The position numbers and the translations under genes are program-made. From positions 20,628,630 to 20,692,629 of the forward strand of contig NC_063451.1 of the NCBI RefSeq assembly GCF_020379485.1: a stretch of 64,000 bases of DNA. The letters run 5' to 3'. Shown one piece after another: positions 9,608 to 62,453 of the stretch. The first letter of the stretch is position 1, and each line of letters begins with the position of its first letter. The notes beneath the pieces were generated by a model. It ran no database searches and was not told the DNA's origin. It was given only the letters and a program-made list of their open reading frames with translations. The stretch comes from Brassica napus. Taxonomy: Eukaryota; Streptophyta; Magnoliopsida; Brassicales; Brassicaceae.

Positions 9608-9632
9608 CCCCCCCCTCCTTCTAGCGCCAAAC
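9608..9632 (-). promoter_or_regulatory. Gypsy primer binding site
   Basis: Directly inside the 5' LTR the minus strand reads TTTGGCGCTAGAAGGAGG followed by a run of G. TTTGGCGC starts are typical primer sites in plant Tat/Athila Gypsy elements. I do not assign the exact tRNA. Confidence 0.75.
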
Positions 9633-34440: not shown

Positions 34441-36933
34441 ATGGTGGTTGAAACGCGACGGTGTAAGAGGAAGGAGAATCCAACGGAGGAAGAGGCTCCG
34501 AGAGTGAAGTTTGCAAAGACGGGCTCCGGAGAAAATGTGGAGAAGACGACGACGGAGGAGAGTGAAACGAAGGCGGTGGAGATTGTTGAATCGACGGCAA
34601 AGACGACGGATGTCTCGATGGAGAAGACGAAGACGACGGATGTCTCGATGAAGAAGAAGAGAAAGGACTCGACGGAAAATACGGCGGAGATGACGGAGCC
34701 GATTAATGTGGCTGCAGAAGCTACTCCGACGACACTGAACAAAGGTCCTGGAGATGAAGAGAATGAGGAAACCGCTTCTGGAGATGAAGAGAATGAGGAA
34801 ACCGCTTCTGGAGATGAAGTGAATGAGAAAACCGCTTCTGGAGATGAAGAAAATGAGGGTTCCGAAGAAGAACAAGAAAAACCAGATGGAGAGAAGGAGA
34901 GTTCTAACGAGGAGAATGAAGATTCTGAAGAAGAACCTCCAGATGGAGAGAACGAAGTGAATGCACGTTCGGAAGAAGAATAAGCAAATGGAGAAGGAGA
35001 AGAGGAAGCAAACGAGAATGGGAATCCATCTGAACCTCAAGTAACAAATTATCAATGAGTTTGAATTTAAGTCGTAACATATGATTAGGGAGAGCTAGTA
35101 AATCGAGTGGGTTAATGTTAGTAATACTAGGAGAACTATTGGAAAAACTGTCAGTTTTGGTACAACATAGGAAAACTGAAATTTTGTAAACCGAACCGTG
35201 GTATTACTTTGATATGCGTTAGTATAACTTTTGAATAACTTGAGTATAACTTTAGTATAACTTTGGTATAACTTGCAGGATTTGGATGGAAATGAGGCAC
35301 CCGAGGCAATCAAACCAACCAGAATGTTCTTCACGCCATCTGAGTACAAGAAAAAAATAAAGCTAGGGATGAGGTGCATGATAGCTAGCGCGATTAAGAC
35401 GCTAACCAATTTGAAACCGAAGCTGTCTAACGCGGAGTGGAACTGGTTCACGGAGCATCCTCAATTCAGACACATTTTCCACATGAAAAGCGAGAACAAC
35501 CACAGGGTTCAGGGAATGTGGATGTTGTTGCTGCGTACTGCCGGTTGCGAGAGGCGGAGAGAAGTGTGGTTCATTGTGAATGGCGATGCCATCCGTTATG
35601 GGCTGAGGGAACACGGTTTGATATCTGGGCTATTCTGCCACAACTATCCTCTCGACTACAAAAAGCTTGGTGGGACGAAGTTCGTTGATCGAAATTTCAA
35701 GGAAGGAGAACTTAGAAGGTTGGAGGATGTTAAGAAGAAGCTGGTGAACATGGGACCCCACAAAGATAGACTGAAGATGGCGGTTCTATTCTTCTTAGCT
35801 TCTATTGTTTGCACGCAAACGAAGGTTGGACACAAGGCTAATGCTGTGTTGGAGGTGTTCCAGAGTGCAGTGGATGATCTTGACTTGTGCAAGTCCTTTC
35901 CATGGGGTAGATTCTCCTATGGATTACATGCTGAAGGGGATCTCTCACACAATGAAGCATTTTGGAGGGGTGGTGAAAGAGAATACATTATGGTCGCTTC
36001 CAGGTTTCTGTGTTCCACTAGAGGTATGCAAAATCAAATTAATGACTTGATTGCTATTGTTATTTACTGATGGTATTTTATAAATGTTGTGTTTAACATC
36101 TTCTTGCATTCATGGCAATTCCTAAGCTAGGAATGGCGTTCAGAGAACCTGTTGAAGGAGCTGATGTCAACTGCCCGAGGATGTGCAAGTCACTCATTCA
36201 AACGAAATGGAATGACAGGGGTGTCACTTTCGGCGATAAACAAGGAATTGTCTAACACAACCGTAAGTTTACCTGTGAACTAAAGTAGAACTAGAGTAAT
36301 ACTGTGGTACAACTAGGGTAGGATTAAAGTAAAACTATGGTAGAACTATGGTAGAACTAGATAGGGAACTATGGTAGAACTAAGGTAGGACTAGACATGG
36401 AACTATGGTAGAACTTAGGTAGGACTAGATAGGGAACTATGGTAGAACTAAGGTAGGACTAGAAACGGAACAATGGTCTCACTAAGGTAGGCGTGTGTTG
36501 CTATGTTTCAAAATTAATTGTGTTTGTGACAGGATATCGACAGCATCATCCCCACCAGAACTCCACAAGAAGAAAGGTTCTTGGATGACATTTTGGAAGA
36601 TGAAGACGATGTTGATGAATCTGATTTATCTGTGGACAGTTGGGAGAAGTGTCTGGATGCAGGCTATAAGGTCTTTTTCAAGACATGCACGACGAGGATG
36701 TAGCTGCACGCGAAAAACAGATAGAAGCGAGTGAAGCTGCAGCAGGGGATGGAATAGAAGTATGTGAGCAGTCGATTCAACTGGGAGATGTTATGCAGTT
36801 GCTGAAAAGAACGATGAAAGTGATGAGGATAGTTGACAAGAAGGTTGACCAATTGGATGGGAGATTGACCCTGCTTGAGGAGTTTGTCAAGGAAGCACAA
36901 GCTAAAGCAGCAGAAGAAGAAGCACCAGCATAA
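34441..36933 (+). pseudogene. DUF1985-domain gene (MULE-associated, Ulp1-family N-terminal type)
   Basis: Exon 1 (34441-35040) is an acidic, repeat-rich tail (G-D-E-E-N-E-E-T-A-S repeated) broken by a TAA at 34981-34983. After a phase-0 intron (35041-35278), exon 2 (35279-36023) is DUF1985: W-F-x-E-H-P-Q-F-R-H-I-F-H, G-M-W-M-L-L-L-R-T, R-Y-G-L-R-E-H-G-L-I-S-G-L and F-P-W-G-R. An extra base near 35929 shifts the frame, after which D-Y-M-L-K-G-I-S-H-T follows. Exon 3 (36131-36262) and exon 4 (from 36533) keep phase 0. A missing base near 36682 shifts the frame into a coiled-coil end (stop 36931-36933). No protease domain. DUF1985 proteins usually accompany Ulp1-like genes in plant MULEs. Confidence 0.78.
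36276..36500 (+). repeat. Intronic minisatellite (GGTAGAACTA units)
   Basis: Within the third intron of the DUF1985 gene, units of GGTAGAACTAAGGTAGGACT and CTATGGTAGAACTAGATAGG repeat about nine times with small changes. Confidence 0.85.
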
Positions 36934-38898: not shown

Positions 38899-39323
38899 TT
38901 AAACATAGAATTCTTCAAACTTTCTAACAATTTCATCTTCATTTTGTATCTTCTCCAAATTCCTTCTCAGTTCTGCAATTGTTTCGTTTAACTGCGCAAT
39001 TACTCTACTCTTTTATCGGATCTCATCCCGGGCTTCAATCAAAGCTCGTTTTTGCCATAATGTTCCGTCCTCTTCATCAAACCATGCGAAGAACTTGCAT
39101 CCATTTTTCTCCTGCCATAATTTCAATTGTAAAGTTATTTTCCCATCAGAATTGCTAGTTCTATAATCAGATAGGATACCTTAAAACGCTGATAACCATA
39201 AAATCGTCGCCCTGAGTTCTTGTCTGTCCAATCTTGTGTTATGGCTGCCTCCAAGCCACAGAAACACAATTTCCGACCAGAATTTTGCCTTCTCCTTGAC
39301 GATCCCGAACCATCTCCTTGCAT
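38899..39323 (-). pseudogene. Second GRF-type zinc-finger / coiled-coil gene, with a stop
   Basis: Exon 1 (39180-39323): ATG, basic Ser/Arg start, then C-F-C-G-L-E-A...N-S-G-R-R-F-Y-G-Y-Q-R-F, a GRF finger whose third Cys position is Tyr. Exon 2 (38899-39111), phase 0: G-C-K-F-F-A-W-F-D-E-E then a coiled coil (L-N-E-T-I-A-E-L-R-R-N-L). An in-frame TAA at 39013-39015 cuts it. The leader (39324-39460) is a long GA/CT repeat. Same direction as the neighbouring GRF gene and the transposase. Confidence 0.68.
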
Positions 39324-39643
39324 CTTCACTATTTTGTACCGAGAAGGAGAAGAGTCGAGAGAGAGAGAGAGAGAGAGTAGGGAGAGAGAGTGAGAGAGAG
39401 GAGATCGAATCGAATGAAAAGGTGAACAAGAAGCAGTATTTATTTCATTTATTAGAGGTTTAAAGGAGAAAATCCGGGTCGATTCCACAAAAGATATACT
39501 TAGTTTTACCAATGTTTTCAAAATAAGCAAAAGCAACATACGAAAAGCAACGTACCAAAACCAAACAACACAAGAGCCATAAAATCCAAACAAAAGATCT
39601 AGTTTGATTCATTGGAATTACTACTACGCATTCCAAACAACAG

Positions 39644-42074
39644 CTAATTGAAACCGAAATTGTGCCTTGGTCGTCTTATGTTTTGTGTCCTTTTACGTCG
39701 TTCCCCAACAGATGGATTCCTCTTATTCTTTTTCCTTCCCTTCCTCTTGAGGCGATCTGGAGGTATGATATGAAGCTTTTTGATGTGATCTGGTACATTC
39801 CATTCAGACCTGTCCGGCACAGAATAAATGGTCTTGTAATAAGCTAATGCCCAAAGTTCCGTCCAGAAATATTTCGAGCACAACTCATGATACTCTATCC
39901 TGATATCACGTCGATGATCAGGAGCAGCTTCAACCTTAAGGAAATATAAGTAAGCAGCATGTCCGTGTAAACAAGGATACTTTTCATAATCATACACCTT
40001 GCAGGTACAACTCTTCGCTATCAAGTTCACAACATAATTCTTCCCATTATCAGTGTCGGTTACCTCGTACTCAAGCTCATAACTATTAAACTCACGCACT
40101 GGTATTTTCTCAGCTTTGCCCCATAGCTTATGCAAGTGAATCTCGACAAGAGGAACCAGTTTGGTATCAATCGACCAAGCCACAGAGTCCTTCCGATGTT
40201 CATTAAACCAGTCAGAAAACTTTTTGATGATTGTATCCAACAATGGTATTAAAGCATACCTCCTGACGTCCAGAAACACACTGTTCATTGACTCCACACT
40301 ATTGCTAGTGTCCAAGTTGTATCTGACACCTGGGAAATGAACCCGAGCCATGTGCTTTTATCAGTATGCTCCTCCAAATACTTGTACGCTGGAAGAAATC
40401 TCACCTTACAAGATGCGTAAGCAGACACGAACTCCGCCAACGTGTAACACCTAGCCAACTCCATAAATCTCCATCCGACTACGGCTTTGGTTGTGTTACA
40501 AGCATGCCCTCTCACATTCTGAGACAAATGCCATATACAATGGCCATGGTGAGATTGTGAAAACACATTAGCTACAGCCGCGATGAGGCTCTGGTTTCTA
40601 TCGCTCATAAAAACTAATTCAGAAGAGTCTGGTATAGCATTTTTGAGCATCTCGAAAAACCATGTCCAACTAGCATTATTGTCACCGTCGAGTACACCAA
40701 TCGCAAGCGGATAATGGTGACGATTAGGATCTTGAGCTTTAGCAAATACTAGTACACCACCATATCCATTCTTCAAAAATGTGGCATCCACAACTATCAC
40801 CTTCCTCATGGCTGAAAAACCTTCAATACAAGCTCCCAGAGCTATGAAGAGGTACTTGAACTTATTTGCCTCATCCAACTTCACTCCTGTTTTTGTTCCC
40901 GAATTGACCCGCTCTAACATGTACAAGTAGCTATATAGCATCTTGTAGCTCTCTTCCGAACCACCACACAACTCATAAATAGCTAGATTTTTCCCTCTCA
41001 AGGCTGTGGAGTAGGATATTGTTACACCAAGTTTTAACTTTATAAGATTCATGATATCTTTCGGAACAGGAGTACTCAGTTTTCCAGGATATTCCTCATT
41101 CAGAAAAGTTGCAACTAATTCTGCTAAGCCTTTCCTCTTGATGTTGCTGCTTTTACTTTGATTAGACCGAGAGCATGTATGCACACCCGTGTACCTCCTA
41201 ACAGAAAAAAAATTCAGTCTGTGGAATCCTTGCAGCTCGTAAACCCCACTTACAGGTTGCTTCAAAACATTTTAACACCAATCGTCTCCGGTCCGACTTT
41301 TTGATAACATAAAGAAAGCATTCACCAAATGCAGCTCTATCGACCACCTCTTGAAGTGCTTTCTTACTTGGAAACTCCTGATACTTAAACACACCCAAAC
41401 CGTCTTCCCAATCCTCTATAACCTGACTAGCTTTTTTTTATAGGTAGCTGCTCAACATACTTATCTGCACCCATATCCATCTCACATGCGGTGTTCGTCT
41501 CTGCTGCAGTGTCCGTCTCAGCTGTTGTGTCCGTTTCAGCTGTGGTGTCTGTTTCCGCTGCAGTGTCTGTCTCCGCTGCGGTGTCCGTATCCATAAAATC
41601 ATTCTCTGCATCTATCAGCTCCTTCTGTTGATTTGCTTGACCATTTTCTACATACAGAGTTAAGGACCTATGTCCGATTTCATCATAAACATCATCATTT
41701 CCCTGCAACACTTCGTAGTTCATACCAAACAAACTTATGCCCACTCTCGACACCTTCTCTAACTGATTTGATCTACTCGTCTCCTCCACTAACAAAAGAG
41801 ATCTACGGTTGTTTTTATCAACGGTTGTTAGGAAACCAAACAGATCATCACCATCACGAATAATTTGTTGTTCTTCAGATCCATACACCATCGGCATGCA
41901 CTTCAATGCCAGTTTTACCTTACTTTCATCCAACGCAAGCTTTTTATACAACTTTTCTTCTAGCATTGCCAAACTTATATCCTCCACTGTTGTCTTCAAG
42001 GTTACACAAGAGATCTCCCCTTTGAATTTGAAATAGACGCTCACATATTTCATCATTGTATCATGCAAGAACAA
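39644..42074 (-). pseudogene. MULE (MuDR-type) transposase, frameshifted
   Basis: Minus strand. The N-terminal part (42074-41427) ends in an acidic run of T-A-E-T-D repeats. A one-base slip in a run of eight A (near 41438) leads to the MuDR DNA-binding region (F-P-S-K-K-A-L-Q-E-V-V; C-K-W-G-L-R-A-A). A slip in a run of eight T (about 41207) leads to the catalytic domain: V-V-D-A-T-F-L (D1), S-D-R-N-Q-S-L (D2), H-H-G-H-C-I-W-H-L and S-V-E-S-M-N (E). A missing base near 40352 precedes the last part, which has a SWIM zinc finger (S-C-T-C-K-V-Y...C-L-H-G-H). Three single-base slips, two in homopolymers. It would cut and move the element; this copy cannot unless the slips are assembly errors. Confidence 0.85.
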
Positions 42075-42860
42075 AAGAATAAAGTTTTAGTTATACCCGT
42101 AGTTCTTAGTTCTACCAAGTTGGCTACAGTTTTACCAAGTTTTACCTACTCTACAACAATTATCAGTTCTACTTGTTATACCTAGTTATACAAAGTAATG
42201 CTTAATGCTTAAACAAGAACTCAAATGTATGTACGATTGATTGATCGGAGAGATCTCCGTGCAAAGCTATTCACAATTGAGACAATTCACACACCCCCAT
42301 GCATAACAATTTCATATACAAATCAACCAAATCATCCCAGAATCAATGCCATTTTAACACTTTCAATTACAAACCCTAAATCCAATTTCTATCTTGCCCT
42401 CTCTTGCTGCTCGCTGAGGAGAGAATAACTAACCTGCATTACGACCTCTCTGAATGAATGCTAGCCGGTGGAAACGTTGCGGTCCGATGGCGTCGCCGGA
42501 GTAGCTATCGACGTCGACAACAGAGTAGCTGGGAGGGAGCTGCAAACCAGAGACAATAACGAGCTTCTCGAGAGGATGAGGAGCTGCGAGCTGGAGCTTT
42601 CCTCGAGCTGCGGGATAACAATTTTTTTTCTTTTAATTTTTGATATTTTTTTCTTCTGAATTCCAATTGAATTCGGTTTCAATTGAATTGAATTCTCAAG
42701 TACAAACCGTCGACCGAAACCCAGACCAAACCAGATAACTCAACCCATACGCCCCAAATTCGATTTTTTTTTTCAACCCTCGAAGGACATTTCCGTCATT
42801 TCACGCCGACTTAATGAAAAAGGACATAGGCGATTATGGAGTCCATAGGAGATTTTGCTT
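42075..42860 (-). other. 5' flank of the MULE transposase
   Basis: 42085-42195 is packed with GTTNTACC/AGTATAAC-type words (minus: GGTATAACAAGTAGAACT). A possible non-coding first exon ends near 42432 with ATGCAG|GTTAGT on the minus strand. No clear MULE terminal inverted repeat was found here or near 34100, so the element's exact ends are unknown. Confidence 0.45.
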
Positions 42861-44985: not shown

Positions 44986-45297
44986 CTGGGGTATGATTGT
45001 TTATGACTTTTACTGTTATGGCTTTTAAAGTAATGACTTTAGAAAATATTTGGATGCGACTTTTGTGACTTTGGCTTTACAATAAGAATAATAGTTTTTA
45101 AAATCTCAAATTCTACCTTTTAAAGAAAGTAAAGCAACAAGAAGAAAAAATGAGAAGTTAGGCTTTAGGTGGCTTTAAGGGGTTTGAGAAATTGTAGGAA
45201 AGAAAAAGTGTGATCGGTAAAATATTTGGTGTTAGAGATTTTAGGTCATTTTAAAGTCTTCAAAGTCTTCAAAGCCTAATCCCCAATCAGAGCCCTG
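44986..45297. mobile_element. MITE-like element, probably hAT-derived
   Basis: Ends are inverted: CTGGGGTATGATTG at the left and CAGGGCTCTGATTG (reverse complement) at the right. The inside shows further inverted similarity (GACTTT, AAAGTC runs). About 312 bp. The expected 8-bp duplication is not convincing. Confidence 0.5.
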
Positions 45298-46223
45298 GTG
45301 AGGTAAGTATGCAAAGATCACTCCACAAAACTAAAAACTCAAATGCATAACCATGAACCGTAGATTTTTTATAAGGAAAAATTATTGTTACCTATACAAA
45401 TAATACACCATCACAACATAACCACATTTAGACAAAATAATGTATTAAAAACAATATATGACAATGAGGGTAATTGGTTGAGTTTTAACTCTGTACTTTA
45501 GCTTTATTTCTTTTTAAATCACTAAATTTTACTAATCATGTTGTAACTTTATTTTTAAAAGTTAAAACCTACATCAAGTTTCTATTAATTTTTATAAATC
45601 ATGCTTTAACTTTATTTTTTAAGCTACAACAAAAAAAAATAAAGCAAATTTGTTTCTTATGTATTTTAGGCAAAAGAAACCTACATCTTCTTTTCATAAG
45701 ATGTAGAATACGTAAAACAAAAAAGAAAGATTTACACTCTAGGACACTTTCCTTATTTTTATTTACACGGTACGACACTTTGTTCTACACACACACTTTA
45801 CCTAACAACTTGTCTTCTATCTAGTTACTTTCCTAACTAACATTTCCCCAATTTCGTTACAGATCAAGTACAAAGCTTCTTCTCCATGTTTCTTCTGACA
45901 GGATTTATCCCTAGCCTTTGATCTCTCTTTATTTCCAAAGGCTGAAATTTAATATCATAGATCTAGACAAGACACTTACCCTTCTTTGCACATCGACCGT
46001 TAGATCATCCTTTTATTATCGACGGCTTAGATCATTTCCAAAGTTTCACCATCTTCCCTCATTCTGTTCTCTACGGTGAGTTAACTCCTTCATTCCTCAT
46101 TACCCTGTAAATTAACAAGATAATCAACTGCGAAATCAGCACATCAAACCTTACTTTTGTCTATGTCTTTCACGTTATATCCAACTAAATAAAGATTTCG
46201 CTAATTTGTTGCAGGCAACCACC
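45298..46223. other. AT-rich region and leader of the second MULE transposase
   Basis: 45300-45720 is A/T-rich with no gene. A likely untranslated exon ends near 46076 (TCTCTACG|GTGAGTT) and an intron runs to the acceptor GTTGCAG at 46208-46214, ten bases before the transposase ATG. Confidence 0.45.
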
Positions 46224-49200
46224 ATGGCCGACCACTGTATGGTCATTGCCGGAGAATGGAAGACCTCCGACGACGGCAGTTGAAACTTCTCCATCGACAA
46301 ACACCAAATGTCGAGGATCGTGACGCTTAGCCCCTCCATGACGTTGGTAGAACTGCAGAACAATGTGTTCAAGGAGTTCTTTGCTAACACCCAAGCACGC
46401 CCACCAGCCTCTTTGAGCTACTGGCCTCCAAACTCTAAAGAACTGGCAACGGGGATCTCAACCCCACCGGTCATGCTCACACACGATGGGTATGTTTCTT
46501 ACTTCTTCCGTCATTTCGAGTTACACAAGGGCATGAACTTGTTTGTCACGTTCAACCATCAGTCGGACCCAATCAATACGAGTCAAGTAGCTGAAAATCT
46601 TTTCCCATTCACCACTCCCAAACAGCCTATCACCAAACCCCTATCTCCTCAACCGTTATTCCGGTCCCCGTCCCCCTGCATCCGGACTTTCCCCGCCTTC
46701 TATCGCCGCATCAAAAATCCCCGAATTTTCCCTTTTCCCTGATGATGATTTACTTGGAGGCAGCCCTTCTAAGCCATCTAACACAACCACCAGCCCTCAC
46801 TCAGCTCCTTCCAAGATCCGACGTTTCTCACTTATTGATGAAACGGTTCTTTGTAGCGACGATATGCTAGAAGAGATGTTTAAAGCAGACTCCGACAACA
46901 TCCCCGGTAGTTGGCAGACAGAAGCTGAGGAGGAGGAGGTTATCGGCCCTGACAGTCCCCTTCCTCCCGGTTTTGAAGAAGTTCAACCACGCGGTTATGA
47001 CCACGACTTTTGGGACCCTTTGATTGCGAAACATCTCGGCGGATCTGATGCGGAACAGGTGATTGATGGCATCGATGTTCCTAAACTGCTCCATACATTA
47101 TCCACAAAGGTGATGCGTTTAACCACACTGTTACACCACCCGGAGAGCAACCAACCAACTGGAAGCCTGATCCAGAAGATCCTACCTCACATCATCACAG
47201 TTTCCCCCATGTATACCCTAATCCGATGGACACACGCACACCTCAATCAGTTCCCTCAACTACCACACAGCATCGGAAGTATCCACATGGACAGCCCACA
47301 ACATGTTCAGCCGGAGTACAACGCCAGTATAATCCACATGGACAACCTACCTACACCCCCAACGGTGTACATAAGTCCAGTACTCCACATGTAAACTCCA
47401 CGCCGTCCACGCGTGCACCCCCAGCCCGTTCCAACAAATCCCCCCAAGTCCCCCCTTCGACTCCACCACTTCGCGAGACCAGGGCACTCTCAGAGATCAG
47501 CGATGAGGAATTTGACGTTCCACCACTCTTTGACGATCTTTCCTACGAAGCTGAGGATGTGCCCGACTTGCATTGGGAGGATAGCAGCGAGGAACCCTTT
47601 GTGGGGAAACTGTATGCAACTAAGCAGGATTGTCAAATTGGGCTTGCTATCTACGCAATCAAGGAGCAGTTCTACTTCAGGCAAACCCGAACCACTAGGC
47701 ATTCCTTTATGCTTAGTTGCCATGATACTACTTGCGATTGACGCATACTAGCGAAGGAGCTAACCAACTGTGGTTACTACACCATCAAGAAGGCCCAGCT
47801 TGATCACACCTGCACCATCGAGACACGCAACCTGTATAGGAAGAAGGCCACATCCAAAGTCCTTGCTCCTGTCTATCGCTCTCGCTACAGCGATCCCACC
47901 AACGGACCTAAATCACTACAGCTTCAGCAGATGATATTGGAAGACCTTCGCATCTCCGCGTCCTACATGAAATGTCACATGGCAAAAGAGCAAGCTGTAA
48001 ACAACACTGTTGGAAACACAGAGGATTCATTCCTAAACCTCGCCTCCTATTTCGAGAGGCTCAAAGCTACGAACCCAGGCACGGTTACTGCAATCGAAAC
48101 CGAGCTTGACATAGAAGGTAACACACGTTTCCTCTATGGTTTCCTAGCTTTTGGTGCTTCGATACAGGGGTTCCGCCGGCTATGCAAGGTGCTCATTATT
48201 GACGGTACGCACCTATCGTGAAAATACAAGGGGGTTCTAATGACTGCTAGTGGCCAAGACGCAAACTTTCAAGTGTTCCCTATGGCTTTTGCTGTCGTCG
48301 ATGGCGAAACTGAGGAAGCGTGGACCTGGTTCCTCACGAAGCTTGAAAGGATCATTCCTGACTCAAATACCCTCTCCATTATCTCAGATTGTCACTCTTC
48401 TATAATCAAAGCCAAGTGTGCTGTCTTCCCACATGCACATCATGGAGCCTGCATAGTCCACTTAATGCGTAACGTGGTCTCACGCTACAAGAACAAAGGT
48501 CTAGCCAGAATGGTGTGTGAGGCTGCATTCTCTTACCGGCGCAAAGATTTTGATCTCTGTTTCGCCAAAATCAGGCAAGCAAATGGAGAATGCGCCAACT
48601 ACCTTGAGGGGATTGGGACTTCAAAGTGGTCTAGGACTTACATCCTTGGGAATGGTTACAACCTATTGACCAGGAACACCGCAGAGCAGCTCAACAATGC
48701 CTTTACCAAAGCTAGGTCTTCACCAGTCATTGAGCTATTCAGGTTTATCCAACGCATGTTGACTCGCTGGTTCTCTGCTAAAAGGACCAAATCAGCCAAG
48801 TGTCGGGGCTTTGTAACACCAGAGGTGGAGAAGGTTATGCAGACACATATTAGGCTCACCAAAGGCAGCAAGATAGCAAATATCACCACTTGAAGCTATA
48901 AGATAAGGGGCCTATTCGGCCATTCCAACACTGTTTCCTTAGAGAACAAAGTGTGTACCTGCCAGGTCTTCCAGAAGCTCATGATCTCTTGCGGCCATGC
49001 TCTCTTAGCTGCTGACTCCATAGGTCTCCCATATGTTCAGCTTTTTGGTGATTGCTACAAAACTCAGACATGGATTGACACATACGCTGGTGCCATTTAC
49101 CCTGAATCCCCCCTAGGAGTCTTCCCCATTCCAGAAACCATTACTTCCGTCCTCATGTTCTCCCCTCAGACTCGACGATCCTCTGGACGGCCAAAGGACA

Positions 49201-49393
49201 AGCGTGTCGCATCAACCGGTGAAATCCCGGTAAAAATCTTATACTCTGCACTGTAAACTTCCTCTCTGTCTTTAGTAACACCTCTAACCCTTTTTGATTG
49301 CAGGCACCCAAGAAGAAAAAACTTGTCCCTAACAAATGTGGCCGATGCGGCGGAACAGGTCACAACAGGACCAATTGCGTTGTCCCAATCTGA
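46224..49393 (+). pseudogene. MULE (MuDR/VANDAL-like) transposase with four Trp-to-stop changes
   Basis: ATG at 46224. N-terminal domain, a Pro/Ser-rich linker, the MuDR DNA-binding region ending D-H-T-C (about 47810), and the catalytic core: I-I-D-G-T-H-L (D1), I-I-S-D-C-H (D2), H-H-G-A-C-I-V-H-L and N-T-A-E-Q-L-N-N (E). A SWIM finger (C-T-C-Q-V-F...C-G-H, about 48955) follows. After an intron (49230-49303) the last exon holds a C-x2-C-x4-H-x4-C knuckle (C-G-R-C-G-G-T-G-H) and stops at 49391. Four in-frame TGA codons (46281, 47739, 48219, 48891) all sit where Trp is expected. Two frameshifts lie at about 46670 (run of C) and 47100. It converges on the Ulp1 gene. Confidence 0.87.
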
Positions 49394-50457
49394 ATGCGGT
49401 TAATCCTATATCCACAGGTCTTGTCTGCTGGATAGCGAATTCACCGGTCATCACCCCTCTTTTTTTTTGGCTATTTTGGGCAAATTAACATGTAATCACT
49501 TTTGCACATGTTCACGCTTCTGCGTCTGCCTACCAACTTTTATTGAATCGCGGATTAGGGATAATTTTCAACTTCTACTTCGATCTCCACTGTCTTTTAT
49601 AGGAAATTTAATCCATGTGTATTACACATTCAACGGTCACATGGCAATCTACAGGTTGTCCACATGGACAACATTTTTCATTGCTCCCAAGTGCACTGCA
49701 ATCAACAACTAAGATAAAAGAGTCAACTAATTAACCTTATTGACTTGGACATCTATTTCATTGCTCAAACTCCACATCAAATTCACCCATGTCTTTGCTC
49801 AAACTCCACATCTATTTCATTGCTTCCAAAATTCACATGCACAATTCTCTCGCATTTTCATTCTGGTTCTACTACGATATACTTAAGTACACCTTTACAT
49901 CTTATATCAACGTCACCCCACCTGTCTGCCAATTTTTCTTAATATATACTTTATAAAGAATACGGAAAATATATATTTGTTGCCATGGTCAACTATCTCT
50001 ATAGTAAATGTTATATCAAATGTTATCCATGTGTACTTCATCATTCAGTGGCACACAGCAGATATAGATCTGTACATATGGACACCCATTATGTACATAT
50101 GTACACCTATTCCTCTTCTATCCACATGTATAACCAAACTCACATCGGCAGGAAAGTCGAATTTTGTTTCTAGTTCTACTATACTGTATATGTGTACACC
50201 TAAACCTCTTCTCACCACATGTATAACAACCACATCATACATTACAACATTAAACCTGCAACAAAAAACATATCACACCAACATCGCAAACCAAAAAAGG
50301 AAATCCACTTAAATACGTTCATATCATACAATCCCAAAATAATCCATCATTCTCACCTACCAGTTCTCGTCCATTGAACACAAACAAAGCTTAACAAAAT
50401 AAAGACAACATCCAAAATACAACAACACTACATAAACCCTAGCTTTCACTGCATCTC
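49394..50457. promoter_or_regulatory. Convergent intergenic region with CCACATGTACACC-type motifs
   Basis: No ORF of interest. Contains at least eight variants of the motif, for example at about 49609, 49660, 50022, 50072, 50092, 50122, 50190 and 50213. The same motif occupies the introns of the neighbouring protease gene. Confidence 0.7.
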
Positions 50458-53400
50458 CTATCCCACATAAACTGGCACAACCCAATCCTTGTACAAGTCC
50501 ATAGCCCACTGCTTCCTCATTATGTCCACCAGCTCGTCGGTCAAACCATCCATCCTAGGATGGGGGTTCCCCAAAGCATGAAGCTCCATGAATTTGACGG
50601 CCACGGGCCAACAATCTCCACTACGGCGGTTCTCGTAAGCACCTCCCATTCTTTCAACCGTAAAGGGCTCCAAACTATACGCTCCATCTTCAGGGGGCGG
50701 ACAAACCTTATCCACCAAATAGGGCAGCATCTTCGACACAACTTCCAACAAACCCCACACCGCTGCCATGTCTTTCAGCCTTGGGTTTGGGTCTAGCACC
50801 AGCACACGCCAATCTTTGAGACTTATGCACAGTCCCACCCAGTGGTTTCCATCCCAAATCATTGGCGCATACAGCGTGTCGATCTCCGCTCCCCACTTCC
50901 TCCCTTCCTTAGTTAGAAACCCTGAAAGTCGCCCATCGCCCAACACCCTTCCCCTGTTACCCCTAGCTGCGTTGAAAGCCCTTGCCTTCCCTTGCAAATG
51001 TGCTACAAACCAAGGCGGGAGGAATATGCTTCGCCTTTCTTTGAGTATCTCCTCATGTCTGTTAGCTACGTACTCAACCAAAGCTTCTATATGATGTGTC
51101 CACATGTACAATATCAGCTTTCCCACACACTCAAAAATCCAGCAATATTTTTCTGAATTAACAACCCAAAGCCAATACTTGAGTAGACACCCATTTCTGG
51201 GATGCGGCAAGATCAAGGAAGAATTGGTTGTCCAAATCATCTTTGCCAGCATTTAGATGCAACCTGCAAAAATAGTTGAAAGCTTACATCCAAATTCACC
51301 ATCATCATACCAAATTTAAGGAGACTTACACTTTCGGATCCCCAACCAACACATTCTCGAAAAAGCGAAAATCTGAATCTTCAACCGTTGGAACAAGCTT
51401 TTCCATGGTAAATGGCTCCTTCGCCAACAAAAAGGCCGCCAAGTCCGCTTCCCTCTCAACTGGTTTGTATTTCTCGCTCCTCTGGCACGACGAGGAATCA
51501 CTTAGCTCCATCACTTGCTTATCTCCATTGCCATCGCTGTCACAGCCCTCACCTTCTGAAGCTGCCCCCTGCCAACAACAAACAACATAACTATTACGAC
51601 AAACAAAACACACTTCTCAGACCGGACTTATTATCAGTGAGTGTACCCCTGTACATTACGGCCAATTATCCACATGTACATACCTGTTCAGCAATGGGAA
51701 AATTTTCAACGACCTTTTCAGCCACTAAGCCGTCACCCAATGCCCCCTTTTTGCCGTCCCCCTTTGCCTCTTTTACATCTATCGCCGTCACATTCTACAC
51801 AACCCAGCGTAAAAACACACATTAACAGAAGTCCATGTGGACACCTTTAGAATACTTATGGTCATTAAGTTAAAAAAAAAATCCACCTCTTAAGCTGTTG
51901 GGATATTTACCAGGTTCTCTTTCACTGAGCCGTCAAGTACGTCCTTTCCCCCGTTGCCCCCCTTTGCCTTTTCCATTTTTGACGCTTCCCCACTCTACGC
52001 AAGAGGCCCAAAACCACATATTATATATTCACTTATCACGACAACTATTATAGGCAATATATGCACCACTTTTACCTTTTCATTGGGGCCTTCCATCAGA
52101 TCGCCCAGTTCCATTGCATTACCTTCAGCTTCCATGCTCTGGGCACACACATAGACATATTAACGCCCGCTCAACTTGTACACATGTACAAGCTCGTTAC
52201 ATAAAACATGTGTACAACAAATTCTTATTACCTGGCCATCAGTGTCCTTTGTAGCTGCACCAGCTTCCGTTCCCTTTCCAACCTCTTTCTCAGCTACCGT
52301 AACCGTCACCCCCCGCGTGATAACACCCACCAGCCTATTCAGGTCTCCAAAATCCTGTGAAACACTTGTGAAGCTATTACAAACAACCAATGTAAGAAAT
52401 GACAAAATATAAGGCGGATCTTACCACTTCAGCCGGGACCCCTAAATCAGCACCCGCATCACTCTCCTGCTCAACATAAGACAGCGGGTAAGCATTGCCA
52501 ACAACAACCTCCCCCCCCCCCCTAGTTTTTCTGCCTACCTCTTCCTCAGTTACGTAGAATGTGTTGCTCCCACTACCATATAGTACCACATGGGCCTTAT
52601 CAGTTTTGTCCCCCTTCTTCGTATAGAGCAATGGAACACCATCTCCTTCTTTCAGACCATGTTCAGCAACTGTCTGTGTCCTGGTCTCACCCCCTTTGAC
52701 CGCACCCAATTCCTCCATGCTGTTATCGGTACCATCAGGGTCGCTTCCCCCAAACAGAGCCCCTGGCTCAACAGAAACAACGCTCTTCTTTCTCCTCCCC
52801 AACCCTCCCAACTTACTGCTTGAAAACTTCCCTATCGTTTTACCCTTATACTTCCTCAGCATACTGCCTTGCTTCTCTACAACCTTGTTTAGTCTCCCGA
52901 GCTCTTTTTTAATCTGCTCAACAACCACCAGCAGAGCCTCGTACTTATCCCCCCCCTCCATCGCCTTTCCGACTGAAGTACCTGCTCAACCTCCTCTGCT
53001 TCATCAAAGCCCCCGCCTCTTCCTTGTGAGTTAATTTCCTGATTTTTCTTTTCACTTCGGTCACAACTGGGTCATGGACATAGACTGGTTCTGAAGCATC
53101 ACCGCCACCCCACTCCCCTTTCTGGAACTTGTGCCCCGATTTCAAAAGGTCCACCATGTACGCCACTTTCCTGTCAAATATCTCGCAGTCGAACACACCC
53201 CACCATCATCTCTATCCTCATCAACCTCCATCATTGGGAGAACCGTCAACTGCATCAAAACAGTACAACAATTGAGAACCTAACAAAAAACGTGCACAAT
53301 ACTTGAGGAAAAGGCAAACATGTGGCTAACTTTTTGTTGTACACACGTACACTTACTAAAGTTTATCCACGTGTATAACTTTACATCAGTTAACCACATG

Positions 53401-54552
53401 TACACCTTTCACCAGATTTCCCCAAACACAACTAAACAACTATACCCAAGACAGGCTTGTACACAAAATCATTTGTCTCGGCATATCCACAGATTAAAAC
53501 TACTAACCTTAGGACTTTGCTCCGCATAAAGCACATCAGTTAGCACCAGCCCCGTATGTGTAGGCAGATTGTCCCCAACATAGCTCAAGAGCGTTACACT
53601 GTCATCGCCTCCTAGCCGGTTAAGCAGAACAGAAATGGCTTCAAACACCCACAGCTCCAGTGCAAGTGGGAACCCCAATAGAAATTTACTCTCCTGCCTC
53701 AGCTGGGCGCAGAAAACACCCTCTGGGTCATCACACTTCCCCAACACCTTCTTAGGCGGTATCATTGTGCTAATTGTCCACCAAAACGACTCACGCCCCC
53801 ACTGAAAGAAGAAGAACTTGTCTAGCTTCTCCACCAATTTAACATACTTCAAGGTCGGCTCTGGCTTCTGCGTTTTCGGCATCAGCACCCCGTCAACAAT
53901 GATGATCAAACAGATTCTTAGCTTCTTCCCCGGAGACAGAGTTTTGTCACCAACAACCATTGCAGCAAGATCTTCTAGAGTCAAGTTACGCCTCCCCCCC
54001 AAACAACTTGTCCCAGAAAACATAGTTTGTTTTCTTCGGCTTCATTTTATCATCTACCTCGTACCCTGGTTCGAACTTCCCACAAGGTAAGCCCGTCACA
54101 TGGCCAAATTCAGCAAGCGAGAACCTAGTCGGACCGCCACCGAAAACAGGCCACATCTCAAACTGTTTCTTCGTTACCAACTGCCCTGCGAGCATTCCAT
54201 GTACCAATTTTGCTGAAAGGGCGCACCTCCGCACTGGTAACCTAAACAGCGGCCCGAAGCACGAACACAACAGCCTCTCCATCTCTGCTGAACCTTCAAG
54301 CACATCCCTCACCAGAAGCAGAAACTCAAGCGAGGCATAGCAGTTGTTCCTATTACTGGGGTATCGGTCGGTTGCAAAGAGACGAGGTGGCAGCCTCTCA
54401 TTGACCAACAACCTCGGGCGGTGCCGTGCCTGAGCCCATAGACACGGATGAAACCGTATAAAATCAAGAACCATTAAGAAAGGCCAATAAACCTTGATTC
54501 TAAACTCACCGTCGTCGATTGCTTTGCCTGCTCTCTTTCTTTTTGTTGACAT
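50458..54552 (-). pseudogene. DUF1985-like / Ulp1 (C48) cysteine-protease gene of the second MULE
   Basis: Minus strand, about eight exons: 53508-54552, 52425-53249, then short ones near 52232-52354, 52079-52138, 51911-51995, 51684-51795 and 51334-51570, and 50458-51264. Exon 1 is DUF1985-like (R-F-S-L-A-E-F-G-H-V-T-G-L). The middle exons are charged and repetitive with a coiled coil. The last is a C48 SUMO-protease-like domain with His in N-H-W-V-G-L, Asp in V-L-D-P-N and Cys in G-D-C-W-P-V, so the catalytic triad looks complete. Ulp1 enzymes cleave SUMO from proteins; the role in transposons is unknown. Frameshifts occur at runs of G (about 53994-54000; about 52947-52953) and near 53200, so it is probably broken unless these are assembly errors. 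Confidence 0.82.
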
Positions 54553-55031
54553 CGCCAAGAGTCTTTGTCCCGTCTCGCCGTCGTCACTCCACCGTTTTTC
54601 CGTCGTCGCTTTCGCCGCCGGTTACAAAGATCGAGTTAAGTTCCGTAAAAAAAAGGAAAAGGTTACAGTTTCACCTTTTTACGGGCCCAACATAATAAAA
54701 TTAACCAAAGACAACCTTAAAATCCACTAATCACCTTCGCCTCATTTCGAATTTCGAAACCGCAAACCAGTGTAACCAGATATATTTGTTGTTTTACTAA
54801 ACTACCCACGCCTGGTTTCGCTTTATGGAGGGCATGCACGACTTTCACCACTACAAAGTGTGTGGGTAGCAATAACTGCTCTTTCATGTAATAAAATGTC
54901 AACAAGTGTCTATACATGAAAATAACTCAACAAAAAAGACTATCTATAATATCAAATAAATTAGATAATCATGATAAAAACATTTATAAATATTTTAATT
55001 TAATTTTGGGTGGTTTTAAATTATTGAAATA
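54553..55031. other. 5' flank of the Ulp1 gene
   Basis: No gene. No terminal inverted repeat matching the region left of 46,000 was recognised, which fits VANDAL-type MULEs that lack long inverted ends. Confidence 0.4.
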
Positions 55032-56354
55032 CTAGTATTAGCTCCCGTGCGTACGCACATACATTATTCTTTTTTATTTTTTTTATTATATAACATATAT
55101 TACAAAATTCTAGTGAATATAAATGTTATTTTGAAAGTTATTGGTAGACAATTTTTTTCTAAAATATATTTATAACAGCCTGATACGGATCCAAAGTGCA
55201 TGTAAAATATTGATTGTTTAATCCAAAATCATTAAATATGAAAACTAAGGGAAAGTATAGATCTAGCACAAATATAATTAAAATATTAAAAATAATAATT
55301 AAAATATTAACTTTAATTTGTAGATAATTGACGTATTTTTGCTCTTTTCTTATATATATATTTTTGTTTTCTATCTTGTTTTTTTTTATTTTGTTTTTCA
55401 TTGTCAATGCTATATTTATCCCAAATTTTTTGTTTCTGAGAAAATCTACAAAAAAAACATACAAAAAACGTATGTTGATCCAAAAAATAATACCACCATA
55501 CAAAAATAAGAAGACCAACCTGAAGTTAGATCTTGATACAGAGGTAGACATGAGTCCTCGTTTCTTCTACCACTTGATTTTCTTAATCCCTATTTTCTAT
55601 CTTCTTGTTATCACAACATATTGTTATTTCTTGAGGTGCTTCTTATGTTGATCTTCGTACTTCCCTTCCTTGAATTACCACGACCACAACGAAGAATCAT
55701 GTGCCAGCAAATTGAAAACTAATTTAGTCCTTCGAAAATTCTTCAAAACAAAAGAAAATAAAATAATTATAAATAAGTTAGCCAAGAAAAAGATTCATAA
55801 AAAAAAAAAGAAACATGAAAAACTATGATTTGATTCGACTCATAAAGAGTCTGGGAGTTATTACCAGGAAATTATCAACCTTGCGGGACGCTTTGCTATG
55901 GAAATTTTTGTTTTTTCTTGTTATTTCTCAAACATTATTTGTTGTGCAAATGTTTAGCAAGATATTTGTAGTCCCGAGAGTGTTGATACCATTAGTATAA
56001 ATTAAAAAAAAAATGAAATTTCATCACTTTAACAAAATAGAGAGAATCAGTGGAGCTACTGCAAATAATTAGGCAAATTTAGGTAGAGATGAATCTGAAT
56101 TTTATAGAATTGTTAGAGTAAATTTGCTATAAAAAAGATTAATTGTTTTGAAAATCGTGAAGAGATCATGGGGTAGTGTTAGAAATATTAAGGATTTTGG
56201 TTTATATCAAAAGTAATAGAATCAGTTAAAAAGGAACGATTCTTTTCATTTAATTTTATTTACTGCATTTGATTTTTTTTTTAAAAATTATATAAAAAAT
56301 GCCAAGTGTTAAAATTTGATTGGTCATGCGACTTGCGCTTTAGTATATAAAAGA
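55032..56354 (-). mobile_element. Non-autonomous Helitron
   Basis: On the minus strand: starts TCTTTTATATACTAAAGCGC at 56354, ends with a GTGCGTACGCAC palindrome and CTAG at 55032. Flanking bases are A (5') and T (3'). About 1.3 kb. Open frames inside (55328-55651, 55159-55551) are low-complexity and not convincing. Confidence 0.82.
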
Positions 56355-57520
56355 TTTAAATAACATAAATATTATTTTCATATCACATTTTAAATAATAG
56401 CAAACTTTGATAATTTATAAAAAAAAATATTAATATGATTATCTTAATTGATAAAATTAATTGTTTCATAGATACATCACATAGTTCACATATTTTATTT
56501 TAAAATATCTACAGTGTATAGCTTACAAGTACAACAAATTTAACTACAGAAAAAATATATGCAAAAGAAATTTACAGTAACAACTTTACAGCTACAATCG
56601 ACTTATCTACAGCAAAACTTTTACATCTTACTTTTTACAGCCACAGTTGAACCCATCACCACCAATATCCTTGAACTATTGTGTGTTATGTTGCTAACAC
56701 CATTAACTTAATTTTGATGGTAACATTTTGACATATTTTAATATGTTTCATTTTGAATGATTGATCTGTGTGTATTCATATGGATATTTGCTATGTTCCA
56801 TTTCTTAAAGAAATTTTTATTGGATGATGCCAAGTTCCATATCGTTTTTCCGATATCAAAATGATTTATTGTGTTAACAACATAACACATATTAGTTAAA
56901 AATATCATGTAATTCATATAGTTCATGTAGTTTTCAATACATTAGTTTTTTCAAATGTGTAACCATGTGGTGGTGTCTTATTCGTGTACCTTACAATCAT
57001 TTTTCGTTTTCTTTTGCAGTGATCATGTAATGTGAAAAGAATAATTTTACTAAAATACAACTCCAACTAGCCACAACTACATTTTCCACGATATTAACTG
57101 GTATGTGATTTTCTCTTAAGAAGGTATCCATTTCATGTTGATGATATTATATGGATTACTCTTTTTGTTCCTAAATGTAAGGGACTTCCAATAATTTGAA
57201 TTTCTACTTTCTATCAAACTCTCTTGGAACTGTGTCTTGATAACTCGAAAGATCATTAGACCACACACTCTTAGCTACTGTGTGTTTTTCAGGTATGCTG
57301 CATTCAGAAAGATTAAGTCTCCATATATGTTGTACAAATATGTAAAGAATAGTGTCTTAGGCATATTATAGAACATTCAGGCTCTCATCGTGACTACAAC
57401 CAGCCATTAAATTCAAATATACCACCTATGTATAGGCATATAATAGAACATTATTATGGCTTAGGCATATTATAGAACATTATTATGGCTTAATCATCTT
57501 TCCTGAAGAATAGTGTCCCT
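56355..57520. other. AT-rich intergenic DNA
   Basis: Nothing recognised beyond short direct repeats such as GGCATATTATAGAACATT (57361 and 57465). Confidence 0.4.
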
Positions 57521-57524
57521 ATTG

Positions 57525-57722
57525 TGGCATTCCAAACACCAAATTCATCAACATGGGAGAAATAAAATTTATAGAACTTCCAAACCTATTTTGTATGTCC
57601 CATTGAGCCATAAATCTTGGAAGTCTTCCATTGTTAAGATTTGAATCCAGTCTTCAACAAGCTTACATAGGTTCTTTGTGTACATGACCATATTATCAAT
57701 ATCCTTGATATCTGCAACTTTT
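57525..57722 (-). pseudogene. Unrecognised coding-like exon
   Basis: The minus strand is open and looks protein-coding: D-I-D-N-M...N-L-C-K-L-V-E-D-W-I-Q, then M-E-D-F-Q-D-L-W-L-N-G-T-Y-K-I-G and a stop. Composition (acidic, aromatic) is unlike the AT-rich surroundings. I do not recognise the family. Half of it is duplicated at about 58228-58310, where the C-terminal half is absent. Confidence 0.4.
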
Positions 57723-58826
57723 TATCTTGTCTAATAGTTTTACAAAGAAGACATATGGTTTATACAGTTGCAAAATTTACGAAAATAAGACTAAATAATC
57801 TGATGTTGCGGTTTAAATGGTTATTGTATGATTCAAGATGAAAGATTGAAAATTCCAAGTGAATTGGTAAAAATTCTTATATGAATATTAAGTCAAATGA
57901 AAAAGAAGAAAGATATAAACATATTTTGCAAGTAACAGTAGATCTGATTTAAACTCACCAAAAACTCTAAGAACAGTAAATCAGAGCTTGAAAACCGCAA
58001 AAATAAGAAGGATCATCTCAAAGAGCCGTAGATAAAAGATGGTGATGAAATAGAAAAGGGTGAAAAGATAAATGGCTTTCTTACTAATTTCTCAAATGGT
58101 CGAATGAACCACATATGTATTTTATACAAATAAATCAAATATTAAACAAAATAAGATAACCAAGTTACTTATCCAACAATCCTATGACAGAAGAGAAAAT
58201 TTATGCTTGGATCTTAGCTCTTGTTCAGATTTGAATCCAGTCTTCAACAAGCTTACATAGGTTCTTTATGTACATGATCATATTATCAATATCCTTGCTA
58301 TCTGCAACTTTTATCTTCTCTAAGAGTTTTACAAAGTAGACATATGGTTTATACAATTGCAAAATTTACGAAAATAAGACTAAATAATCTGATGTTGCGG
58401 TTTAAATGGTTATTGTATGATTCAAGATGAAAGATTGAAAATTTCAAGTGAATTGGTAAAAAATCTTATATGAATATTAAGTCAAATGAAAAAGAAGAAA
58501 GATGAAGACATATTTTGCAAGTGACAGTAGATCTGATTTAAATTCACCAAAAAATCTAAGAACAGTAAATCAGAGCTTGAAAACCGCAAAAATAAGAGGG
58601 ATCGTCTCAAAGAACCGTAGATGAAAGATGATGATGTAATAGAGAAGGGTGCAAAGATAAATGGCTTTCTTACTAATTTCTCAAATGGTCGAATGAACCA
58701 CATATATACTTTCCATAAATAAATTAAATATTAAACAAAGCCTTAGAAAAATAAGATAACCAAGTTACTTATCCAACAATCCCATAGCAGAAGAGAAAAG
58801 TTATGCTTGGATCTTAGCTCTTGTAA
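57637..58826. repeat. Tandem duplication, unit about 590-600 bp
   Basis: Copy 1 starts AGATTTGAATCCAGTCTTC at 57637 and copy 2 repeats it at 58227. The two run in parallel to TTATGCTTGGATCTTAGCTC (58201 and 58801) with few differences. The high similarity suggests a fairly recent event. Confidence 0.9.
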
Positions 58827-59286
58827 TGGCCAACTAGATTTTGATACGCTCTTTAAAAACGTGGATTGTTCTTTGGTTTTATATTTTATATTATTTTGAG
58901 CCGTGATTTCAAAACACGTGTTATTTTAACCTTTTGATTTTATATTTTACGTTGGTTAGGTTAGAGATTTTGTTATGGAACTCATAACTAAGTTTTAAAA
59001 AATTAAAAAGGTTTTAAATGGTTATTAGAATGATTATCATTTTATATTTATAATTATTGGATATTTGGTCAAGAGAAACCAAATATTATAGGGCATAAAG
59101 AATATTCACAAATATTTATTTACTATTTCAAACAGTTATTTAAATACATGAGTTGGTAACAAAATAATTAAGATTTATTAACTACCGAATTTTAAAATAT
59201 GTAATTTATATTTAATTTGTGTACATGTTATATTTAGTTAGTTTTAAATAATCTTTTTTGTAGAGAATTTCGACCAGCTATATATA
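58827..59286. other. AT-rich intergenic DNA
   Basis: No gene or element recognised. Confidence 0.4.
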
Positions 59287-60944
59287 AAATTATATGGGGG
59301 CCAAATATGACTCAAAACTTGATTTTGATTGCAAAACTATACCCAAACTTGAATCAAATGCAAAATTAACCCAAAAGTCTTGTGAAATTACAAACACTCC
59401 ATTGTGACCAAACAAAAAAACATAACTCATTTTTACGAATATAGTCCCGCTAAATCTTCTGAGTCTTATGAGATTCTGTTAAGCCTTCTAGACGACGTCC
59501 ACAGATGTCGTCTGGTATAGTTTATCGTAAAAATAATTTATAAATTTTGTAAAAAATATTTTGATAAGCGAAAAATTAAAATCATGTAATTATAAACAGT
59601 TTTAAGTGATATAAATTAAGATATAATAAAATTGAATTGTTTTCAACATAGATGAGTGAAAGTAGTGAATCATGATATTCTTTGGTCTAGGGTTTGGCAA
59701 CATATGTTGTAGTATTGTATGTATTCTTAGGGTTAGATTTTGGAAAGCTTAAATGGTTTTTTGAAAAATTAATTTTTTACCGTGATTATTTCTGTGTATA
59801 GTAAACACTTTTTAAGTTTAATTTGATTTTATGCAGTGTTTAGTTAGTTAATTTACTTTAGGGGTTATGTTTAGGGTCTAGACGACTAACATGTAAGTCG
59901 TCTGGCGATTAAAAGACTTCTCTGAAAGTCTTCTAACTCCCGCTAAAAATATTTTAGTTTTCCGCTAAAAATATTGAAGTCTTCTGGGCGACATACAAGT
60001 AAGTCTTCAAGTAAGTCTTCTGATCGAAAAAATTTAACCTTATTGAAATTTTGTCTCCATATATAAAGAAAAATTTACACATTCTCTCTCCTCCTCTCAA
60101 ATGGGTGCAACAAAAATGGTAGGTTCATCATTCTAAAACTCTCTAACCTCTATCTAATCTCTTTGAACTTATAAACACCAAATTTTATATCAATTAATTG
60201 TTTTTGTCTCATGTCTTTCTCACTAGTTTATCTTGTTTTGCAGGTTTTTCATCACATGGATCTCATCTTTCACTCATTTAAAGGTATATTTATTAATTTT
60301 AGATATGTATTTTTTTGTGTTCTATAAATGTAGATCTATCTAATCTTCCACTCATTTTCTCTGTTTTTAAGTCATTTGAACGTTTTTGGAGATACATGTT
60401 TTTCATAACTAGATTTGGATATGCAGGTTTTTCAGATCTGGAAGACTTCAAGACTTCCAGGAAGTCTTCTGACGGAGCCTTCTCCCATTCTCCCTTTCAT
60501 AATAGATCTGAACGTTTTGGTAAGTTTTTATGTCTGATTTTTCTTCATTTGGTAACCTCCTGTTGCATAAAGTTCATACATTTTTTCCCAAACTAAAACT
60601 CTCCAAACCCACTCTAATCTCTTTGACTTGAAAACACTAAACATTATATGAATTTTTTATTTTTGTCTCATGTCTTTCTCACTAATCTATCTTTTTGTTG
60701 CAGGTTTTTAATCAGATGGTTCTCATCTTCCACTTGAATATGTACTTTGTGTGTTCTATAAAAGTATGTCTATCTAATTTTCCACTCATTTTCTCTGTTT
60801 TTAAGCCATTTGAACATTTTTTTATATGATATGCAGGTTTTTCAGATCTGAGTTTGATATACATGTTTTTCAGATCTGGATCAGACTTTGGAAGACCTAT
60901 GGAAATTCTTCTCGGAAGTCTTCTAAAATATAATGCGCTAGAAG

Positions 60945-61018
60945 ACTTCCCAGGAAGTCTTCTAGACGACTTCCAGGAAGTCTTCTAGACGACTTCCAGG
61001 AAGTCTTCTGGCGGGGTC
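60945..61018. repeat. Direct triple repeat of a 24-bp palindrome
   Basis: GACTTCCAGGAAGTCTTCTA follows itself three times without spacing, each copy itself palindromic. Confidence 0.85.
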
Positions 61019-61822
61019 TTCTTCCATATCAAGTGGAGGCTAAGCTTGTCTTTGTAGAGGAATGATCTATAATAGTTTTGTTTGTGGCCTGTTTTGTGAT
61101 TTGCATGTGTACTCCTTTAGTTGTGATTTTTTTTTTATAGATTTGAAGAGATATTAATGAAAAATTTTGGTAAATATGTTCATTTTCCACAATATTATCT
61201 TGCCAAAATTACTTGACATAATTGAAGTTATTGATACAACTTCAATATCAAAACACAAAAACACAAAAAATCAGTCACATTTATTACAAGTAAGGGAGAA
61301 GAATTCTCAAGAAAACTTAGTCAAATTCACAAAATATAAAACATTACATAAGTTCAAAGGTAGAACACTTTCATTAGATACATAAGTAAAAAGTATATCT
61401 TATTATCTGAGAAGACACATTAAACCATGTTAGTTGATATTCTTGAAGTTACTTAACAATTTTGAAAATTAAATAAACATATCTTAAAGTTAATTAACAA
61501 ATTTACAAAAACTAACGTAGAAGACTTCCACGGAAGTCTTCTCAATTAGTTAGAAACTTTACTAAGCATGAATGTTGGTAACCTCATAAATATCACCAAT
61601 TAAGTTATAAATTTCATTCAGTATCCCCAATATTGACTAATATACATGAATTAACAAAAAAAAAAATTTAAAGTCTTTATAGTTTTAGAGAAAATGAAAG
61701 TTTATTAAACATTGACGCAGACGACTTCCACGGAGGTCGTCTGGTAGACTTCTAGGAAGTCGTCCATTAAGGTTAGTTTTGCAATTGATTTTTAACCTAG
61801 ACGACTTACATGGAAGTCGTCC

Positions 61823-62453
61823 ATCTTTGTTTTTAAAAAAAAAACTCGAGACGACTTACATGTAAGTCGTCTCGGGAAAACAGGTTAGTTATGCATTTGA
61901 CCGGATTGTGTCAGAAATTTGACTTTTTCTAGACGACTTACACGTAAGTCGTCCAATAGAAAATTAAAAAATCAATATTTTGTTATACCTAGACGACTTC
62001 CATGTAAGTCGTCTCAGGTTAGTTTTGCAGTTGAAAAATAAAACAAAAATATGTTTTTTTTCTAGACGACTTATACGAAAGTCGTCCGTCCGACGACTTA
62101 CATGGAAGTCGTCCAAGATAAGCAAGGTTTGACCAGAATCTCGGAATAAAATCATGGACGACTTCAATGTAAGTCGTCGGACGGACGATTTCCGATTTCC
62201 GTGTAAGTCGTCTAGAAAAAAATAGTTTTTTTTGTTTTATTTTTCAATTGCAAAACTAATCTGAGACGACTTCCATGTAAGTTGTCTAGGTATAACAAAA
62301 TATTGATTTTTTAATTTTCTACTGGACGACTTACGTGTAAGTCATCCACGAAAAGTCAAATTTATGACACAATCCGGTTAAATGCAAAACTAACATGTTT
62401 ACCCTATACGACTTACATGGAAGTCGTCTCAAATTTTTTTTAACAAACAAAGC
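61823..62453. repeat. Large inverted repeat with arms of about 280 bp
   Basis: Left arm about 61823-62105, right arm about 62165-62453, spacer about 60 bp. Matching words in inverse order include GGATTGTGTCA / TGACACAATCC, AATCAATATTTTGTTATACC / GGTATAACAAAATATTGATT and the palindromes between them. A transcript would fold into a long hairpin. Confidence 0.85.

Follow-up and report, generated by a model that had tools for sequence, protein, structure and literature searches.

A VANDAL-like element with a Ulp1-type gene

The window analyzed here, a 64,000-nt stretch of the Brassica napus genome, contains two MULEs. MULE1 lies at approximately 33.9 to 42.9 kb (window 33900-42850), and open frames that by eye resemble pieces of gypsy and copia retrotransposons are present at 2272-16457. 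MULE2, the subject of this analysis, is a VANDAL-like non-TIR MULE whose full length is 9,204 bp (9.2 kb; 45725..54928, + strand). Its limits were defined from related copies and from a non-autonomous element at another locus (L012), with which it has the termini GAAAGATTTAC...ACTC in common. Each end is bordered by the target-site duplication AACAAAAAA (45716..45724 on the left and 54929..54937 on the right, neither with a strand), which has the 9-bp length of VANDAL-type non-TIR MULEs. This duplication is A-rich and its placement was set by the L012 termini; L012 itself is flanked on both sides by its own duplication, TTGTTTCAT. Long terminal inverted repeats were not found, in that none of the 13 inverted pairs of at least 18 nt in 45000-55400 connects the two ends of MULE2.

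Two genes occupy the element. A VANA-like MULE transposase gene (46224..49394, + strand, limits set by eye) carries a PF10551 match within 48240-48893 (E 1.4e-16). On the - strand, a second gene combines a DUF1985 (VANC-family) region at 53469..54558 (PF09331, E 1.7e-17 and 5.1e-18 for two overlapping frames) with an Ulp1 (Peptidase_C48) domain encoded by an open frame at 50458..51252 (PF02902, E 1.7e-38). These regions were joined through introns at 53252..53508, 52138..52232, 51793..51911, and 51573..51681, whose splice signals were read by eye and whose limits are uncertain by a few bp. The same order of DUF1985, middle part, and C48 is found in the relatives L029-L033, and the presence of both domains in one gene is the feature by which Kaonashi/KIU elements are recognized. 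The copy in the window is broken: its transposase frame survives only as fragments, and its DUF1985 region is divided over two frames.

Database searches relate this gene to a known anti-silencing factor. A profile built from its relatives allowed the MULE2 DUF1985 region to match VANC21 (E 3.2e-12), and the best named protein relatives of MULE2 are from Brassica. Searches of PDB sequences with the C48 domain gave no match at E 0.01, and no relative of MULE2 was recovered from the viral contigs searched. Because DUF1985 is the family of VANC21, whose structure with target DNA is in the PDB (9lnj), the MULE2 gene product looks like a Ulp1-type VANC in a VANDAL-like element. A VANC21 crystal, then unpublished, is also mentioned in the accessible part of PMC8756742.

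A directional motif concentrated in MULE2

Sites with no more than three mismatches to CCACATGTACACC number 41 in the whole window, where 9.86 ± 3.40 are expected, and none of 100 shuffles reached this count. MULE2, which makes up 14% of the window, holds 29 of them, compared with a mean of 2.9 and a maximum of 7 when this stretch was shuffled 30 times. The original prediction that at least 17 variants of a private motif lie at 47270-53410 is thereby borne out. Nine of the ten single positions it listed are within 2 bp of a site; the other, 52207, is weaker, with more than three mismatches to CCACATGTACACC and two to GTTGTMCATGTG. By comparison, MULE1 has three sites in 8,951 bp and the remaining window has nine in 45,898 bp.

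Within MULE2, noncoding DNA is strongly enriched and accounts for 16 of the 29 sites in just 2,746 bp. One cluster fills the gap separating the two genes (49502..50229, + strand), and others fall within the introns of the VANC-like gene described above. The intron at 51573..51681 has a motif at its donor end (51668-51684), that at 51793..51911 contains one at 51831-51847, that at 52138..52232 contains two (52178-52194 and approximately 52204), and that at 53252..53508 carries four spaced 26-28 bp apart (53311, 53339, 53365, 53392). Eight more sites form the densest cluster of all, in 222 bp of the transposase linker (47200-47421; first to last site 47203..47421, + strand), where only "a few" variants had been anticipated. 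This cluster is coding DNA, and the rest of the coding sequence has five sites in 6,183 bp. The linker cluster encodes PHGQP/PHV peptides. A similar cluster is present in the relative L028, and no conservation of the linker motifs beyond their coding role was evident.

The motif model was obtained by refinement of non-overlapping sites. This procedure replaced a free expectation-maximisation on both strands, which settled on a stretch rich in A/C and on a palindrome that had been symmetrised. In the refined model, 12 of 17 columns carry at least 0.6 bit, and the extended form is approximately TATCCACATGTACAMC. Weight matrices were also trained on seven intergenic, seven intron, or seven linker sites, all initially chosen with the consensus of the original prediction, and 10, 14, and 12, respectively, of the 15 best matches outside each training set return to MULE2. 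The inner ACATGT is palindromic, as had been claimed, but the motif as a whole is directional, with 25 of the 29 sites on the + strand.

CACATG/CACGTG (bHLH), GTAC (SPL), and CATGT (NAC) are boxes for host transcription factors, and the resemblance of the motif core to such common boxes of plants would fit their recruitment as enhancers. We consider this very improbable. The motif is longer than such a box, its sites extend into a coding linker and introns, it has a preferred spacing, and it tracks a C48 clade (see below). Moreover, it is not enriched elsewhere in the window, where 5 sites compare with 4.2 in shuffled sequence for 1-33000 and 2 with 1.0 for 56000-64000.

The spacing of the motif is most evident where it is tandemly repeated. 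The window element and L009-L042, some of which are near-copies of one another, contain 152 tandem arrays. Among those with periods of 15-60, periods of 24-28 were found for 17 of 21 motif arrays (unit with no more than two mismatches) and for 16 of 82 motif-free arrays (at least five mismatches), with 26 in-between arrays left out. Genome-wide, CACATGTAC occurs in 305 same-orientation pairs with gaps of 6-36, compared with 252 for a control word that is itself a word of the motif. Among the 100 pairs listed, all from the first contigs, 47 are spaced at 24-28 bp, compared with 16 if spacing were uniform; after merging similar fillers, 25 of 53 listed pairs retain this spacing. A 10.5-bp periodicity was not found among the 22 pair distances of MULE2's own sites.

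Some motif copies lie in recognizable local duplicates. In the gap, 49604..49675 (+ strand) is an old duplicate of 50018-50090 (local alignment score 61; best of 300 shuffles 37), 50092..50146 (+ strand) is an old duplicate of 50185-50236 (score 71; best of 300 shuffles 34), and both carry motif variants. No excess of internal repeats was detected in the transposase linker (34 versus 34 in shuffles) or in the first intron (26 versus 29), and for the VANC gene there is a weak hint of a duplicated exon (53 versus a largest shuffle of 46). Such duplicates, together with the tandem arrays at other loci, are what would be expected if slippage had merely multiplied a functionless word that relatives then inherited. 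However, the word persists between fillers that differ from one another (53 distinct ones among the 100 listed pairs), and orientation and spacing are alike in different places. In addition, three relatives with 48-51% C48 identity (L037, L038, L039) retain the motif, although blastn finds nothing in them that matches the gap past 49472. We therefore assign passive duplication very little weight as a full explanation.

Distribution of the motif among relatives

A search of the same genome with the C48 domain found 145 places at E <= 1e-20, some partial and many distant. Fifteen of these were read besides the window: L028, which was fetched because it has the motif; ten selected from the top 13 C48 ranks, with rank 11 skipped; and four hand-chosen loci of 2,951 bp each, with C48 identities of 51%, 42%, 42%, and 35%. 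The motif is present in all 12 loci with 48-88% C48 identity, L028 included, at 10-24 sites with no more than three mismatches (shuffle means 1.1-3.3). In the usual orientation, all three loci at 35-42% identity have only 0-1 sites. Thus, as far as the loci have been read, motif type tracks C48 relatedness in this genome, which is the outcome that the original prediction had set beforehand as its check.

Several loci have individual features. One of the distant loci, L040, has five motif sites in the opposite orientation (shuffle mean 1.4, largest 4), mostly inside a repeat of its own. In this Ulp1-type locus (42% C48 identity), the word CCCGTCCACACC occurs 12 times with no more than two mismatches at 976-2947, mostly as a 15-bp array, and may be either a motif private to a different clade or a repeat within coding sequence. 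The motif in L038 has drifted toward CATATGTAC, with 18 instances of TATGTAC and four of CATGTAC. At L034 (G000:C294:53756835-53759174), two tandem C48 copies are present, and motif sites lie between and beside them.

The motif also extends to loci that lack MULE2 proteins. Its exact form occurs 96 times in the 997-Mb genome, a count whose control is void because the exact motif reads the same backwards. Thirty-eight of these sites sit in 20 hand-chosen 10-kb stretches, 12 with clustered exact sites and eight with single ones. At least three sites with no more than two mismatches, exact ones included, are found in 19 of the 20 stretches and in seven of the eight singles (shuffled sequence averages at most 0.33 and never exceeds 2). 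Only four of the 20 match MULE2 proteins or 82 relatives. Either blastn or an exact match to the 11-mer GAAAGATTTAC indicates a MULE2 end in nine of the 20, and neither does so in the other 11; this 11-mer is also absent from 41 kb of window sequence that lies outside the MULEs. L012 is a non-autonomous element with MULE2 termini, its own target-site duplication, the motif, and no MULE2 proteins. L013 and L020 share 96% identity across 3.9 kb, and L012 is approximately 95% identical in pieces. L012 1610-7614, L013 3307-7243, and L020 2819-6744 are closely related, motif-rich non-autonomous elements. The single L013 ORF examined had no Pfam match. The simplest reading of the protein-less motif loci is that they are non-autonomous relatives sharing the mark.

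Presence of the motif in the non-autonomous L012, whose termini match those of MULE2, might instead indicate internal sites for the VANA-type transposase, rather than a VANC target. Its orientation is compatible with this view, since 193 of 222 sites in 13 copies (the window included, and the copies related to each other) point along the transposase strand. However, the MULE2 motifs begin approximately 1.5 kb from either end and are located in the linker, the gap, and the introns of the other gene, a layout that known VANC targets show in the accessible part of PMC5735166. Binding by the transposase is accordingly an unlikely explanation. We favor, at a probability of about 0.8, the reading that the motif is the self-recognition mark of a Ulp1-type VANC anti-silencing system in a VANDAL-like MULE family of Brassica. 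The DUF1985 protein of the family would bind the motif in dense arrays, with neighbors approximately 2.5 helical turns apart, and binding would strip DNA methylation over the element, by analogy with VANC21, a protein that binds a motif of its own, and with VANC6. Non-autonomous elements with the same motif would ride along, and the broken copy in the window would rely on intact relatives. New motif copies could be supplied by local duplication and retained by the preference of the protein.

Two VANC types and comparison with known systems

MULE1 carries a VANC21-like DUF1985 exon (35273..36070, + strand; VANC21, PDB 9lnj, E 7.7e-69), and no Ulp1 domain was found in the three MULE1 ORFs scanned. 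Its motif, GTANAACT, forms an array of GTAKAACT at 36280..36453 (+ strand) with steps of 11, 22-23, and 34 bp, and sites on the - strand are less regular. GTANAAC sites of MULE1 are found in 11-bp steps on the + strand near the DUF1985 gene, and on the - strand near the transposase. The two elements were originally described as related neighbors, and both do pair DUF1985 with a transposase, but identity is only 28% over 68 aa for DUF1985 and 36% over 118 aa for the transposase. From these low values, MULE1 and MULE2 are judged to be two VANC types, VANC21-like and Ulp1-type, that are distantly related and not the products of a recent split.

Their motifs had been regarded as unlike each other, which does not wholly hold. 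The right half of the MULE2 motif is GTAYAMC, and the VANC6 motif reversed is GTACAACT or GGACAACT. GTANAAC is enriched both in MULE1 (38 versus 4.3) and in noncoding MULE2 (11 versus 2.2). Uncorrected p values from matrix comparison are approximately 0.05 for MULE1-MULE2, 0.002 for MULE1-VANC6, 0.015 for MULE1-VANC21, 0.016 for MULE2-VANC6, 0.87 for MULE2-VANC21, and 0.086 for VANC21-VANC6. Given these values, a GTANAAC core common to the MULE1 and MULE2 motifs is suggestive only. Use of the VANC6 motif itself by MULE2 was rejected, as exact AGTTGTMC occurs five times in the window (3.55 expected) and never in MULE2; likewise, YAGTATTAY occurs three times in the window (2.53 expected) and never in MULE2.

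In B-DNA, 26 bp corresponds to approximately 2.5 turns and 11 bp to approximately one turn. A 2022 study by Sasaki reportedly dealt with motif density and helical periodicity. We tentatively suggest, while leaning slightly against it ourselves, that the register is 26 bp for Ulp1-type VANCs (2.5 turns, with adjacent sites on opposite faces of the DNA) and 11 bp for VANC21-type proteins (a single turn, with sites on the same face). Spacing might then be part of the code that separates neighboring systems, while the GTANAAC core would be old and common to MULE1 and MULE2 of Brassica as well as to VANC6 of Arabidopsis.

Transposons that demethylate targets through a DNA-binding protein of their own are rare. 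VANC-specific motifs in tandem arrays are described in the accessible text of Hosaka 2017 (PMC5735166), RdDM acts at the same regions (PMC10398659, as far as its text was available), and a review available in part (PMC13317346, citing Sasaki 2022) states that Ulp1-carrying VANCs recognize the motifs of their own group. Coevolving, element-specific anti-silencing, as inferred in the original prediction, is therefore already published for Arabidopsis in what could be consulted of PMC5735166 and PMC13317346, the latter with Ulp1 types. From sequence, that interpretation seems largely right and is partly supported, in that MULE2 pairs DUF1985 with a Ulp1 domain and the motif tracks C48; the distance between the MULEs qualifies its picture of related neighbors, and its kind was already known. 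Brassica VANC motifs were not encountered in any title or abstract of the open-access literature searched. What appears to be new is the Brassica motif, its spread to protein-less loci, its spacing of 24-28 bp, and the cluster in the coding linker. A second plant genus with VANC21-like and Ulp1-type systems side by side, each having its own motif and spacing, would, together with the 145 C48 matches (some partial and many distant) and the VANC21-DNA crystal, make it possible to relate specificity to protein sequence, and sequence-addressed epigenome tools could follow.

Among known systems, MULE2 resembles Arabidopsis VANDAL21/VANC21 and VANDAL6/VANC6 (PMC5735166, PMC10398659, in their accessible portions) in joining a MULE transposase to a DUF1985 protein and in having a short motif, differing by VANC type, that is amplified in noncoding DNA and often tandem. 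It is unlike them in that its motif is CCACATGTACAMC rather than YAGTATTAY or AGTTGTMC, and in its Ulp1 domain, its spacing of approximately 26 bp, its one coding cluster, and its occurrence in the genus Brassica. With the Kaonashi/KIU elements, non-TIR MULEs whose VANC gene includes Ulp1 (available text of PMC13317346 and PMC6117577), it shares DUF1985 plus Peptidase_C48 beside a MULE transposase; those elements are reported there with motifs of their own, and the likeness seen here is one of domains. A further comparison is MULE1, which likewise has a DUF1985 gene adjoining a MULE transposase, a motif of its own, and possibly a common core. MULE1 differs in being VANC21-like, with 11-bp spacing and without a Ulp1 domain in its scanned ORFs.
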